DNA of 56,833 nt from the IMG/VR virus record IMGVR_UViG_3300013108_000466, positions 1 through 56,833 of that record; one strand, written 5' to 3'. Positions 3,762-54,858 of this stretch are shown here, piece after piece (the first letter of the stretch is position 1; the number at the start of each line of letters is the position of its first letter). Made by a program: the position numbers and the translations under genes. The notes under the pieces were generated by a model that was not told where the DNA came from, made no database searches, and saw only the letters and a program-made list of their open reading frames with translations. Source of the stretch: a virus.

Positions 3762-3912
3762 AATAAAAAAATAAATTGAAAGAAAAAATTTGTATAGCAA
3801 TTTGTAAAATTACATTCAACAAAGTATGTCTAGGTTGGTGTAATGAAAGATGTTGTAAATAAACGGCACCTTTTAAGTTTTTACATATATGTATAATCAA
3901 CAAAAATGTTAT

Positions 3913-9211: not shown

Positions 9212-10786
9212 ATGGCTGGAGACTTAAAGAAAGTAATAAGAAGTGAATACTTAAAATGTGCTAAAGACCCAGTACATTTTATGCGTAAATATTGTTATAT
9301 ACAGCACCCACAAAGGGGACGTATACAATTCAACTTATACCCATTCCAAGATAAAGTATTAACACTATGGAGAGATAATCCATATTCAATTGTCTTAAAA
9401 TCAAGACAGTTAGGAATTTCAACATTAGGTGCAGGTTATTCATTATGGTTAATGACATTCCATAAAGATAAAAACGTTTTGTGTATAGCGACAAAGCAAG
9501 AAACAGCTAAAAACATGGTTACAAAGGTAAAATTTATGTATGAGAATTTACCTTCATGGCTTAAAATTGATGCCCAAGAAAATAACAAATTAACATTACG
9601 ATTAGATAATGGATCTCAAATTAAAGCAACATCAGCAAGTAGTGATGCTGGTAGATCCGAAGCAGTATCTTTGCTATTAATTGATGAGGCAGCTTTTATT
9701 GAAAATATTGGTGAGATTTGGGCTTCAGCTCAACAAACATTAGCAACTGGAGGTGGTTGTATAGCATTAAGTACTCCTTATGGTACAGGTAATTGGTTTC
9801 ATCAAACTTGGAGTAGAGCAGAAGCGGCTGAAAACGATTTTTTACCTATAAAATTACCTTGGTATGTTCACCCAGATAGAGATGAAGCATGGAGAAAAAG
9901 ACAAGATGAATTACTAGGTGATCCTAGAATGGCGGCACAAGAATGTGATTGCGATTTTAGTACTTCAGGTGATATTGTTTTTTATCCTGAATACATTGAA
10001 TATTATGAAAAATCGTTTGTTAAAGATCCTTTAGAAAGAAGAGGTAATGACCAAAATTTATGGGTTTGGGAACAAGCTGATTATTCAAGAAGTTATATGG
10101 TAGTAGCTGATGTATCTAGAGGTGATGGTAAAGATTATTCTGCATGTCATGTAATAGATACAGAAACAAATGTACAAGTTGCTGAATATAAAGGACAAAT
10201 AGGTACTAAAGAATATGGTCACTTATTAGTTGGATTAGCTACAGAATATAATGAAGCAATGTTAGTAATTGAAAATGCTAATATTGGTTGGGCTACTATA
10301 CAAGTAGTAATTGATAGAGCATATCAAAACCTCTACTATTCACAAAAGAGTGGAGAAGCAAATGTTAATTCGTATTTTGATAAATATCAAGATCATTCAA
10401 AAATGGTTCCTGGATTTACTATGTCATCAAGAACAAGACCTATGGTAATTGGTAAATTTCAGGAATATATTAGTGATAAAGGAGTAACAATACAATCAAA
10501 AAGATTGATAGAAGAAATGAAAACATTTATATGGCGTAATGGAAGACCAGAAGCTCAATCAGGTTATAATGATGATTTAGTTATGGCTTTTAGTATTGCT
10601 ATGTATATTAGGGATACAGCTTTGAAATTTAAACAAAGAGGTATAGATTTAACAAGACAATCATTAAATAATATGCAGGTTAATAGATCAGCATATCAAG
10701 GTAGTTATGGTAACAACCCAGGCATGAAAAATCCTTATGAAATAAAAACCAAGGATGGTAAAGAAAACATTGATTGGTTATTATAG
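9212..10786 (+). CDS. terL: Terminase large subunit (gp17-like)
   Basis: 524 residues. The ATPase domain has a Walker-A-like SRQLGIST (about residues 64-71) and a Walker B LLLIDEAAF (about 155-163). The C-terminal nuclease domain shows three acidic positions: ADVSRGDG, LVIENAN and GYNDDLVMAF. The size fits T4 gp17. It pumps DNA into proheads through the portal encoded just downstream and cuts concatemers. No small terminase is recognisable upstream in the window. High confidence from motifs and position. Confidence 0.95.
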   Translation: MAGDLKKVIRSEYLKCAKDPVHFMRKYCYIQHPQRGRIQFNLYPFQDKVLTLWRDNPYSIVLKSRQLGISTLGAGYSLWLMTFHKDKNVLCIATKQETAKNMVTKVKFMYENLPSWLKIDAQENNKLTLRLDNGSQIKATSASSDAGRSEAVSLLLIDEAAFIENIGEIWASAQQTLATGGGCIALSTPYGTGNWFHQTWSRAEAAENDFLPIKLPWYVHPDRDEAWRKRQDELLGDPRMAAQECDCDFSTSGDIVFYPEYIEYYEKSFVKDPLERRGNDQNLWVWEQADYSRSYMVVADVSRGDGKDYSACHVIDTETNVQVAEYKGQIGTKEYGHLLVGLATEYNEAMLVIENANIGWATIQVVIDRAYQNLYYSQKSGEANVNSYFDKYQDHSKMVPGFTMSSRTRPMVIGKFQEYISDKGVTIQSKRLIEEMKTFIWRNGRPEAQSGYNDDLVMAFSIAMYIRDTALKFKQRGIDLTRQSLNNMQVNRSAYQGSYGNNPGMKNPYEIKTKDGKENIDWLL

Positions 10787-50535: not shown

Positions 50536-50543
50536 CGTATATT
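50515..50543 (+). promoter_or_regulatory. Bacteroidota-type promoter overlapping a terminator
   Basis: TTG 50515-50517, TATATT 50538-50543, spacing 20 nt, CG before the box. It serves the small membrane protein at 50569 and probably the dpdA operon. Confidence 0.75.
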
Positions 50544-52576: not shown

Positions 52577-53371
52577 ATGGCAAAACATTGTGTAGTTTCG
52601 TTAAGTGGTGGAATGGATAGCAGCACCCTATTGTTAAGAGCTATCAGCGAATATGATACTGTAACAGGTATCTCTTTTGATTACGGTCAAAAGCATAGAG
52701 TAGAGCTTCAAAAAGCTCAATCTTTAATTGATTACCTTGCTAGTAAAGGTCATAAAGTAAATTATAGACAAATTAAACTAGATGGTTTAGTAGACTTACT
52801 AGATTCAGCTTTAGTTCAAGGAGGAGATGATGTACCAGAAGGACATTATGAGCAAGACAATATGAAAGAAACAGTTGTTCCTAATAGGAATAAAATGTTT
52901 GCTTCTATTACTCAAGCAGTAGCTTTATCTATTGCTAATAGAACACAAGAACCAACAGATATCGCTTTAGGTATTCATGCTGGTGATCATGCAGTTTACC
53001 CTGACTGTAGACAAGAATTTAGAGATGCAGATGATGCAGCTTTTAGAATCGGTAATTGGGAAGCCGATAGAGTAGGTTACTTTACACCTTATTTAGATAC
53101 AGATAAATTAGGAATTTTACAAGATGGAGAAAAATTGGTTGAAACGTTGGGTATTGACTTTAATGAAGTCTATAAAAGAACGAATACATCATACAAACCC
53201 TATCCTAGTGGAAATTCTGATTATAAGTCTGCTTCTAGTGTTGAGAGGATTGAGGCATTTATTGCTTTGGGTAGAAAAGATCCTGTCACTTATGAGGATG
53301 AAAGTGGAGTGGTTCCTTACGAAGTAGCTGAAGCTCACGTAAAACAAGTATTAGCTGAATATTCAGCTTAA
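52577..53371 (+). CDS. queC: QueC-like ATP-pyrophosphatase without the zinc-cysteine site
   Basis: 264 residues. PP-loop S-G-G-M-D-S-S (about 9-15), D-Y-G-Q-K-H (about 34-39), V-P-N-R-N-K (about 103-108) and G-I-H-A-G-D-H match QueC (7-cyano-7-deazaguanine synthase). The C-terminal zinc site of standard QueC, T-x-S-C-Y ... C-G-x-C-x-x-C-x-x-R, aligns with T-N-T-S205-Y ... D215-Y-K-S218-A-S-S221-V-E-R, so all four Cys are replaced. The overall spacing is kept, so the fold is probably intact. It may make preQ0 without zinc, or stop at the amide, or act on another carboxylate. A tRNA-Ala follows 7 nt later. Confidence 0.8.
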   Translation: MAKHCVVSLSGGMDSSTLLLRAISEYDTVTGISFDYGQKHRVELQKAQSLIDYLASKGHKVNYRQIKLDGLVDLLDSALVQGGDDVPEGHYEQDNMKETVVPNRNKMFASITQAVALSIANRTQEPTDIALGIHAGDHAVYPDCRQEFRDADDAAFRIGNWEADRVGYFTPYLDTDKLGILQDGEKLVETLGIDFNEVYKRTNTSYKPYPSGNSDYKSASSVERIEAFIALGRKDPVTYEDESGVVPYEVAEAHVKQVLAEYSA

Positions 53372-53378
53372 TACAGGA

Positions 53379-53452
53379 GGGGGATTAGCTCAGCTGGCTA
53401 GAGCACTTGATTTGCATTCAAGAGGTCATCGGTTCGACTCCGATATCCTCCA
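53379..53452 (+). tRNA. tRNA-Ala (anticodon TGC)
   Basis: 74 nt. Acceptor GGGGGAT/ATCCTCC includes the G3-U70 pair that specifies alanine. The anticodon loop is TTTGCAT with stem CTTGA/TCAAG; T-arm ATCGG-TTCGACT-CCGAT; discriminator A. CCA is not fully encoded. All canonical arms are present. Confidence 0.95.
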
Positions 53453-53473
53453 CAAATTTTTAAACTAGAAATT

Positions 53474-53953
53474 ATGAGTAAATTAAAAGAGAAGTTTGGT
53501 AAGTACTTTCAATTCAAAAATACCATTAATGGAACAGATTATTTCCTAAGAGGATTAGCAATGTTACTATTTATTATTCCAATTGGAATCCTTATTGGAG
53601 TTGGAATAGGAATAATGGCAGCAGGTGGAAATGGGCTTTTAGCTGGTATTCTTGTTTTATTAGGAGCGTTATTAGTTATACCAATGATGTGGTTTTCACT
53701 AGCAACAACTTATAAAAGAATCAATTCATTCTTTCCTAAGAAAGCAACATTACTAACAGTACTAACATTTTTATTCTCGTTTGTTCTTGAAGGAGTTAAT
53801 CCTAATAGTACAAATGGTTTAGATTTTGAAAATCCATCACCAATGGTTAGTCCTTTAGAAAGTCCTATCTACATAGTACTTTTATTGGTATCATTAGTAT
53901 GGAGTTTCTATTTACTATTTGGTAATTCAAAAGTTAAGAAACATATAGGATAG
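53474..53953 (+). CDS. Polytopic membrane protein (DUF805-like)
   Basis: 159 residues with about four hydrophobic segments (about 29-50, 53-75, 93-107, 129-147). 'FQFKNTINGTDYFLRGLAMLL' and 'MMWFSLATTYKRINSFFP' resemble DUF805-family inner-membrane proteins. It sits between two tRNA genes. Function unknown. Confidence 0.65.
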   Translation: MSKLKEKFGKYFQFKNTINGTDYFLRGLAMLLFIIPIGILIGVGIGIMAAGGNGLLAGILVLLGALLVIPMMWFSLATTYKRINSFFPKKATLLTVLTFLFSFVLEGVNPNSTNGLDFENPSPMVSPLESPIYIVLLLVSLVWSFYLLFGNSKVKKHIG

Positions 53954-53959
53954 TACAAA

Positions 53960-54032
53960 TGGCTCGTGGTGTAACTGGCAACACGTCTGGTTTTGGTCCA
54001 GAAGAGTCTAGGTTCGATCCCTAGCGAGCCAA
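53960..54032 (+). tRNA. tRNA-Gln (anticodon TTG)
   Basis: 73 nt. Acceptor TGGCTCG/CGAGCCA with T1-A72, D-arm GTGT/ACAC, anticodon loop TTTTGGT on stem TCTGG/CCAGA, T-arm CTAGG-TTCGATC-CCTAG, discriminator A. Canonical cloverleaf. Confidence 0.95.
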
Positions 54033-54043
54033 CGTAAAAAATA

Positions 54044-54185
54044 TGCCCAGTAGAGCAGTAGGTAGCTCGCTTTGGCTTAACTCGACGCGAAGTTGAACTT
54101 TAACGTGAAGGGTAACTTGTAATACAATCGATCGTGAAAAGCAAAGAGGTCAAAGAGGTCACAGGTTCGAGTCCTGTCTGGGTCA
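54044..54185 (+). tRNA. tRNA-like gene with a ~69-nt insertion in the anticodon arm
   Basis: Acceptor halves TGCCCAG (54044-54050) and CTGGGTC (54178-54184), D-arm GAGC-AGTAGGTA-GCTC with GG and A11-U24, and T-arm ACAGG-TTCGAGT-CCTGT are all intact. Pair 1-72 is T-C (mismatch), which together with A11-U24 recalls initiator tRNA. The anticodon stem CTTTG (54070-54074) can pair with either of two tandem copies of CAAAGAGGT (54142-54159), and 76 nt separate the stem halves instead of 7. No conventional anticodon can be read. It may be an intron-containing tRNA of unknown type, a regulatory tRNA-like RNA or a decayed gene. Confidence 0.6.
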
Positions 54186-54190
54186 ACAAA

Positions 54191-54276
54191 GTAGTAGTTC
54201 CTGAAAGTCTGTAAAAAGACGAATGAGAGAATAAAAATAGTCCTATGACTTCCCTTTCAGGTCTCTCCGCTACTAC
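54191..54276 (+). ncRNA. Structured RNA with nested stems and a pseudoknot
   Basis: P1 GTAGTAG (54191-54197) with CTACTAC (54270-54276), 7 bp. P2 CCTGAAAG (54200-54207) with CTTTCAGG (54254-54261), 8 bp. Inside P2: P3 TCT/AGA (54208-54210 with 54217-54219) and P4 AGTC/GACT (54239-54242 with 54247-54250). GAGAGA in the P2 loop (54225-54230) can pair with TCTCTC (54262-54267), exactly the strand between P2 and P1, forming a 6-bp pseudoknot. It lies 5 nt after the tRNA-like gene and 16 nt before an ATG. I cannot assign it to a known class. Confidence 0.65.
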
Positions 54277-54292
54277 CTATTTAAATATTATT

Positions 54293-54496
54293 ATGAGAAA
54301 ATTTTTAGAAAATAAATACACAAAGTTAATATTTAGTATAGCAATTATGGGCTCTGCTATTCCTTCTATTTACAAAGACTTTACTTATGGTCATAGTGGT
54401 GAATGGACACATTATGGAATGATGTTAGTTGGAGTTTTATATTTTATTGAATCATTACTTTGGACATTAGACTTATGGCAACAAAAAAACAATTAA
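54293..54496 (+). CDS. Small two-TM membrane protein
   Basis: 67 residues from ATG 54293; the upstream in-frame ATG 54245 would lie inside the structured RNA. Two hydrophobic segments (about 11-27 and 42-60). It directly follows the pseudoknotted RNA and overlaps the CorA-like gene by 22 nt. Function unknown; it could be controlled by that RNA. Confidence 0.6.
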   Translation: MRKFLENKYTKLIFSIAIMGSAIPSIYKDFTYGHSGEWTHYGMMLVGVLYFIESLLWTLDLWQQKNN

Positions 54497-54858
54497 AAAG
54501 AGCATTAGAATATTACGAAGTTGTAATTTTTGAAAATAAAGATTATGATACTGATGATTTCTATAATTTAAAAAGAGAATTATTAAGAGGAGAACATTTA
54601 GATTTAATTCAAATATTTGAAGTGCTAGAAGACATTATTGAAAAAAGACATAATGATCTAATGAATCGTAGATTAAATTTATTAACAATATGGTCTACAA
54701 TATTCTTACCACTATCTTTTTATACTGGACTTTGGGGAATGAATTTTGATGATGTTCCTTTAATATCAGATGATCATGGATTTTGGATATTTGCAGTTTT
54801 AACTGTAGGTACAATAGTAGGAATGTGGTATTATTTTAAAAAGAATAAATGGATTTAG
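54475..54858 (+). CDS. CorA-like mini magnesium-channel protein
   Basis: 127 residues from ATG 54475. The long helix (about 30-62) leads into TM1, followed by Y-T-G-L-W-G-M-N-F, the G-M-N selectivity motif of CorA Mg2+ channels, a short acidic loop and TM2 (about 97-118) with a Lys-rich end. The large N-terminal cytoplasmic sensor domain of CorA (over 200 residues) is almost absent. It may be an unregulated or modified ion channel in the inner membrane. Confidence 0.7.
   Translation: MATKKQLKRALEYYEVVIFENKDYDTDDFYNLKRELLRGEHLDLIQIFEVLEDIIEKRHNDLMNRRLNLLTIWSTIFLPLSFYTGLWGMNFDDVPLISDDHGFWIFAVLTVGTIVGMWYYFKKNKWI

Follow-up and report, generated by a model that had tools for sequence, protein, structure and literature searches.

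A pseudoknotted RNA element inserted behind the tRNA genes of a flavophage: a candidate passenger RNA

R86 is a pseudoknotted RNA element encoded in a 56,833-base virus record (IMGVR_UViG_3300013108_000466, analysed as a whole and hereafter called the window), and the host of the virus that carries it is a marine bacterium. The element is real and well structured, being improbable by chance at this spot, yet not unmatched in the genome. Comparison with related records indicates that R86 is an insertion filling a variable slot behind a tRNA-like gene in this lineage, and not a leader of the gene that follows. We put at about even the chance that it is a free-standing passenger RNA, which would be released from the operon and act in trans; that it serves as a decoy or inhibitor is a guess.

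Genomic context and architecture of R86

The features of the locus are listed in table 1. R86 is a non-coding sequence with RNA genes on one side and an ORF on the other, in an intergenic space of about 106 nt. It starts 5 nt (ACAAA) past the discriminator base of the interrupted tRNA-like gene and ends 16 nt before the start codon of the membrane protein gene at 54293. The CorA-like gene overlaps the latter, and beyond it lie a thioredoxin gene and then queD- and queE-like genes, labels that rest on PTPS and radical-SAM matches.

Table 1. Features of the R86 locus, with positions counted from the first base of the window
Feature	Positions	Strand	Remarks
queC	52577-53371	+	upstream of R86, same presumed transcript
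tRNA-Ala(TGC)	53379-53453	+	ARAGORN
DUF805-like membrane protein gene	53474-53953		between tRNA-Ala and tRNA-Gln
tRNA-Gln(TTG)	53960-54033	+	ARAGORN
Interrupted tRNA-like gene	54044-54185	+	upstream of R86; conserved insert in anticodon arm
R86	54191-54276	+	pseudoknotted RNA element, ~86 nt
P1, 5' strand GTAGTAG	54191-54197	+	7 bp with P1'
P2, 5' strand CCTGAAAG	54200-54207	+	8 bp with P2'
Hairpin 1, TCT-GTAAAA-AGA	54208-54219	+	4 bp when P2 frays at its end
Pseudoknot, 5' strand GAGAGA	54225-54230	+	6 bp
Hairpin 2, AGTC-CTAT-GACT	54239-54250	+	
P2', 3' strand CTTTCAGG	54254-54261	+	
Pseudoknot, 3' strand TCTCTC	54262-54267	+	contiguous with P2'
P1', 3' strand CTACTAC	54270-54276	+	
Membrane protein gene, 67 aa	54293-54496	+	downstream of R86; no assigned family
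CorA-like gene (C-terminal domain)	54481-54858	+	PF01544, E 1.6e-20

We read the sequence from 54188 to 54280 and checked every base pair singly. The two nested stems, the pseudoknot and the two hairpins of the original prediction were all found where it had placed them, in the strand order A-B-hp-C-hp-B'-C'-A'. P1 gains an eighth pair if the T at 54198 adds a U-G pair. The 3' strand of the pseudoknot occupies the space between P2' and P1', abutting the first and stopping 2 nt short of the second. Put differently, CTTTCAGGTCTCTC is complementary in a single run to GAGAGA plus CCTGAAAG, which stand upstream in swapped order, and CUUUCAGGUCUCUC can pair without a break with CCUGAAAG plus GAGAGA. 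The helices are nearly all Watson-Crick and geometrically compatible, and in our model P2 and the pseudoknot can stack coaxially into a 14-bp core closed by P1.

Folding strength and distribution

Without the pseudoknot, the minimum free energy fold of R86 is a three-way junction of -21.5 kcal/mol (z -3.2). The nested fold plus the best extra helix amounts to -28.4 kcal/mol, a value reached by none of 6000 dinucleotide shuffles (z -5.6). A descriptor scan, which allowed G-U pairs and loose spacing, found the same topology at equal score twice in 2.3 Mb of shuffled sequence, or roughly once per Mb, and brought up no neighbour of interest. In all, 24 overlapping 90-nt segments on both strands of the whole record fold as strongly as R86, compared with 3.5 in shuffles. 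The earlier view that the fold is unlikely by chance is therefore supported by the shuffles, but other places in the window attain the same raw score.

Judging from our searches, R86 is almost unique to one phage lineage. The sole certain other carrier is the record IMGVR_UViG_3300009130_001283 (L082/L109), which represents the same phage (99.3% identical to the window over 3.4 kb); both copies of R86 are identical and so carry no covariation. Searches with blastn returned chance matches only, both from 50,697 named phages and from plasmids. Exact-match seeds recovered with certainty only the L082/L109 copy among 2.9 million viral contigs, the remaining matches being coding or devoid of the topology, and no certain homologue among 84,980 bacterial and archaeal genomes, although a diverged homologue could escape seed patterns that demand exact matches. 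A cmscan of 371 bases against Rfam at E <= 5 gave no family match for R86, which, with the adjoining tRNA genes, bears out its original description as unassigned and next to tRNAs.

A covariance model (R1) was built from the single R86 sequence and run on the window, 50 related viral records, the phage immuto and tRNA arrays; its best non-self matches look like chance. The search by covariance model put forward with the original prediction, as run on the 50 related viral records, thus yielded no homologue. An exact-looking GTAGTAG...CTACTAC match in L129 was rejected because it lies inside an ORF. In the window, R1 found R86 in single copy, and a MITE or attC-like DNA element was discarded for this reason and for want of a supporting motif. 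The longest antisense match of R86 in the window is at chance level, and no target or partner came to light.

One apparently non-coding region (L144, positions 3766-3880 of IMGVR_UViG_3300012667_000413) contains an identical 19-nt hairpin, AGTCTGTAAAAAGACGAAT, and shares with R86 the order P2-hairpin-PK-P2'-PK', with a P2 of 15 bp and a pseudoknot of 9 bp of different sequence. It differs from R86 in lacking P1, in an insertion of 27 nt that separates P2 from the hairpin, and in a T-rich stretch after PK'. A topology of this type occurs at around 0.4-0.6% of control sites, and by our estimate chance alone should yield a handful of occurrences of the 17-base seed in a collection of this size. 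Since the similarity of its flanks to those of R86 ranks 45th of 78 control sites, that is, at chance level, homology between the two is not established. On the minus strand, positions 3389-3880 of L144 comprise the pseudoknot, then the T-rich stretch and some 370 nt that seem to be non-coding.

The presence of R86 in a single lineage is equally expected of a useless insertion. It might accordingly be a non-functional hitchhiker, either a recently acquired structured piece or a spacer that folds by chance, as suggested by its orphan sequence and by a raw folding score that does not stand out as extreme within the window. The composition-controlled z of -5.6 and the compatible, almost entirely Watson-Crick helices argue in the opposite direction. 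We regard this reading as a serious rival, though an unlikely one.

A variable slot behind the tRNA-like gene

Relatives of the virus carry the same tRNA-like gene and the downstream membrane protein gene with no R86 between them. In L095 and L085, whose proteins are 96% and 91% identical to that of the window, the start codon of the gene lies about 18-20 nt past the tRNA-like gene, too close for R86 to fit in. Unrelated ORFs separate the two genes in L086 (a small one) and in L057 (one of 225 codons); L057 has the whole pair of membrane protein and CorA-like genes. Behind the tRNA-like gene there is therefore a variable slot, empty in some relatives and taken by other ORFs in others, and R86 is what fills it in the lineage studied here.

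This finding weighs on two readings in which R86 works in cis. According to the first, R86 is a processing or stability block that splits the tRNA part from the mRNA part of the transcript, stops exonucleases or shields the 5' end of the mRNA for the membrane and CorA-like proteins after excision of the tRNA. R86 does sit exactly at the boundary between tRNA and mRNA, 5 nt past the one and 16 nt short of the other, and in other tRNA arrays several structured spacers have long closing helices that directly adjoin the tRNAs. Such a block is, however, not needed, since relatives have the same boundary without R86, and the site shows no conserved sequence or shape. A boundary element of this kind is thus a second serious rival that we hold to be improbable, to the same degree as the hitchhiker.

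The second is a riboswitch, proposed in the original prediction for the membrane protein gene with a deazaguanine intermediate as possible ligand; it would control this gene and the overlapping CorA-like gene in response to such an intermediate or to Mg2+. CorA proteins are a family of Mg2+ transporters. The short distance to the start codon, the pseudoknot shape and the proximity of queC, queD, queE and the CorA-like gene would be in agreement with it. Nevertheless, the membrane protein gene occupies the same place in relatives without R86 (L095 and L085, and L057 with the whole gene pair), which makes a riboswitch for either gene unlikely. In addition, there is no terminator after R86, its helices do not sequester the start region, and it would be unusual for a riboswitch to have no homologues. 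No Rfam riboswitch was matched even at E 5, in particular none of the preQ1 families (RF00522, RF01054 and RF02680) in the cmscan of 371 bases. Like the preQ1 riboswitches of types I, II and III, R86 is a small pseudoknot, and it lies near deazaguanine genes; unlike them, it has no Rfam match, no expression platform and no conserved gene association. We consider this reading very improbable, and that deazaguanine control of the membrane protein gene is very unlikely is in itself a useful negative result.

Comparison with known RNA families

R86 belongs to none of the known families with which we compared it, as judged by Rfam matches, size, repeats and toxin genes. In the hammerhead core, CUGANGA and GAAA surround a three-way junction, and positions 15.1 and 16.1 form an A-U pair. 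The proposal of a small self-cleaving ribozyme, also contained in the original prediction, could draw on the compact nested pseudoknot and on a pseudoknot-free three-way junction in which CUGAAA / GUCU-AGAC / GAA follow one another as in a hammerhead, but is hardly to be credited, given that R86 has CUGAAA and GAAU with G8 missing and an unpaired U at position 15.1, that the perfect P2 would occupy the hammerhead core, that no Rfam ribozyme was matched, and that the known strand orders of twister and HDV differ from that of this strand (the HDV order fits the minus strand only, without the conserved J4/2 residues).

A tRNA was rejected as well, as neither ARAGORN nor RF00005 detects one in R86, and only a 7-bp closing stem is shared. 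Two stable RNAs of phage T4, RNAs C and D, are small non-tRNA RNAs without assigned function that lie within its tRNA cluster; R86 resembles them in this setting. ROOL and GOLLD are non-coding RNAs of phages and prophages found near tRNA islands (PMC12286853). They resemble R86 as phage-encoded, pseudoknotted RNAs beside tRNA genes with no assigned function, but they are hundreds of nucleotides long, widely conserved and form oligomeric cages, whereas R86 is an orphan of 86 nt. Both were discarded, with no Rfam match and an intergenic space too small for several hundred nucleotides.

ToxI and the pseudo-ToxI of phages are type III antitoxin decoys, those of phages being trans-acting pseudoknots (PMC3475682). 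If our preferred reading is right, R86 would work in the manner of these phage-borne pseudoknots or of the ROOL and GOLLD RNAs. ToxI itself consists of short tandem repeats and has ToxN as partner, whereas R86 is single and has the extra P1 stem. R86 was therefore rejected as a type III antitoxin: its neighbours encode membrane and CorA-like proteins, with no ToxN-like gene among them.

Exchanged spacers in related tRNA arrays

Two related records, G021 (array L133, 41500-48200) and G051 (array L254, 18800-25700), have arrays of 24-25 tRNAs. Their tRNA blocks reach 99.6% identity, yet a number of the spacers between the tRNAs have been exchanged wholesale. The Ser-Gln spacers (97 vs 86 nt) are unrelated, the Gln-Pro spacer measures 70 nt in one record and almost nothing in the other, and the Leu-Arg (4 vs 90 nt) and Ala-Asp (216 vs 67 nt) spacers differ, as do others. 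Strong folds are seen in several spacers that were exchanged (z -5.7, -5.3, -4.1, -3.4 and -3.2), the most structured ones being among them. Taken together, the spacers of tRNA arrays are modestly enriched in structure, with z <= -3 in 7 of 25 spacers compared with 14 of 141 control gaps (rank test, p 0.08). R86 fits this picture, in which structured cassettes among the tRNA genes are open to exchange.

The Flavobacterium phage immuto (L131) has an unannotated structured spacer between tRNA-Glu and tRNA-Gln (10557-10634; z about -3) with the closing stem AGCAGG/CCTGCT. A hairpin TCCTCAAGAGAAA...CTCTTGGGGA recurs in the intergenic DNA of L025 (406), L018 (409), L050 (101) and L049 (101).

A possible role in trans

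Neither a promoter for R86 alone, whether of the Bacteroidota type or convincingly sigma-70-like, nor a terminator of its own was found, and R86 would be made within a longer RNA. Promoter-like TTTCGTATATT boxes at 50537 and 54881 flank the operon.

We propose that R86 was inserted as a cassette between the tRNA-like gene and the gene pair downstream, and that it is transcribed within a long polycistronic queC-tRNA-corA RNA. Maturation of the 3' end of the tRNA-like RNA at 54185 would set the 5' end of R86, leaving a 5-nt leader, and the P1-closed pseudoknot would protect its 3' end. The coaxial core closed by P1 may be a shape suited to a long-lived, stable RNA. Once released, R86 would act in trans; our guess, and the most plausible option, is that during infection it serves as a decoy for a protein or RNA of the host or inhibits it. 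The free-standing small RNA was one of three options in the original prediction and is the one that is left, with the circumstantial support of a fold stronger than chance, of its insertion in the slot, of the absence of its own promoter, of the spacer exchange in G021 and G051 and of the precedent set by ROOL and GOLLD.

In a broader and more tentative version, which we find doubtful, R86 would belong to a large reservoir of modular passenger RNAs that are swapped rapidly and lie among the tRNA genes of flavophages, comparable to protein morons and in part counter-defence decoys, and L144 would be a distant relative in which both strands of the pseudoknot were replaced. If R86 truly acts in trans, the tRNA clusters of phages dock exchangeable small RNAs as well as tRNAs, and there are untapped RNA effectors that gene-based annotation overlooks.

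The box TTTCGTATATT(TA) is found at both positions given above and in L129, where GTTGCCTA precedes it; it is possibly a promoter motif of this phage group's own.

The interrupted tRNA upstream of R86

The tRNA-like gene upstream of R86 encodes a conserved RNA and is, from its alignment, a stronger novelty than R86. In 18 distinct flavophage sequences (the window, L057, L037, L049, L050, L022, L014, L066, L086, L102, L105, L110-L113, L116, L120 and L121), 94.5% of cells are paired, and compensatory changes on both sides were found in 22 of 35 pairs, a figure as high as this occurring in none of 500 shuffles. The anticodon stem extends to 7 bp and is followed by a TTAA bulge and then by the insert, of about 45-75 nt and with an invariant core (GC ... 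CGATCGTRAAAAGCA). Positions 1:72 form a non-standard pair in 13 of the 18 sequences, and A11-U24 is present in most; a mismatch at 1:72 is also a trait of initiator tRNAs.

ARAGORN does not call this gene. Named phages lack it, their matches being confined to the T arm, and a scan of bacterial genomes with the core pattern gave unrelated matches only. The RNA may be either a tRNA with a tiny intron of a new type or a natural tRNA-scaffolded RNA. The same tRNA body is present in L055 (4801-4944), with a different insert without the conserved core.
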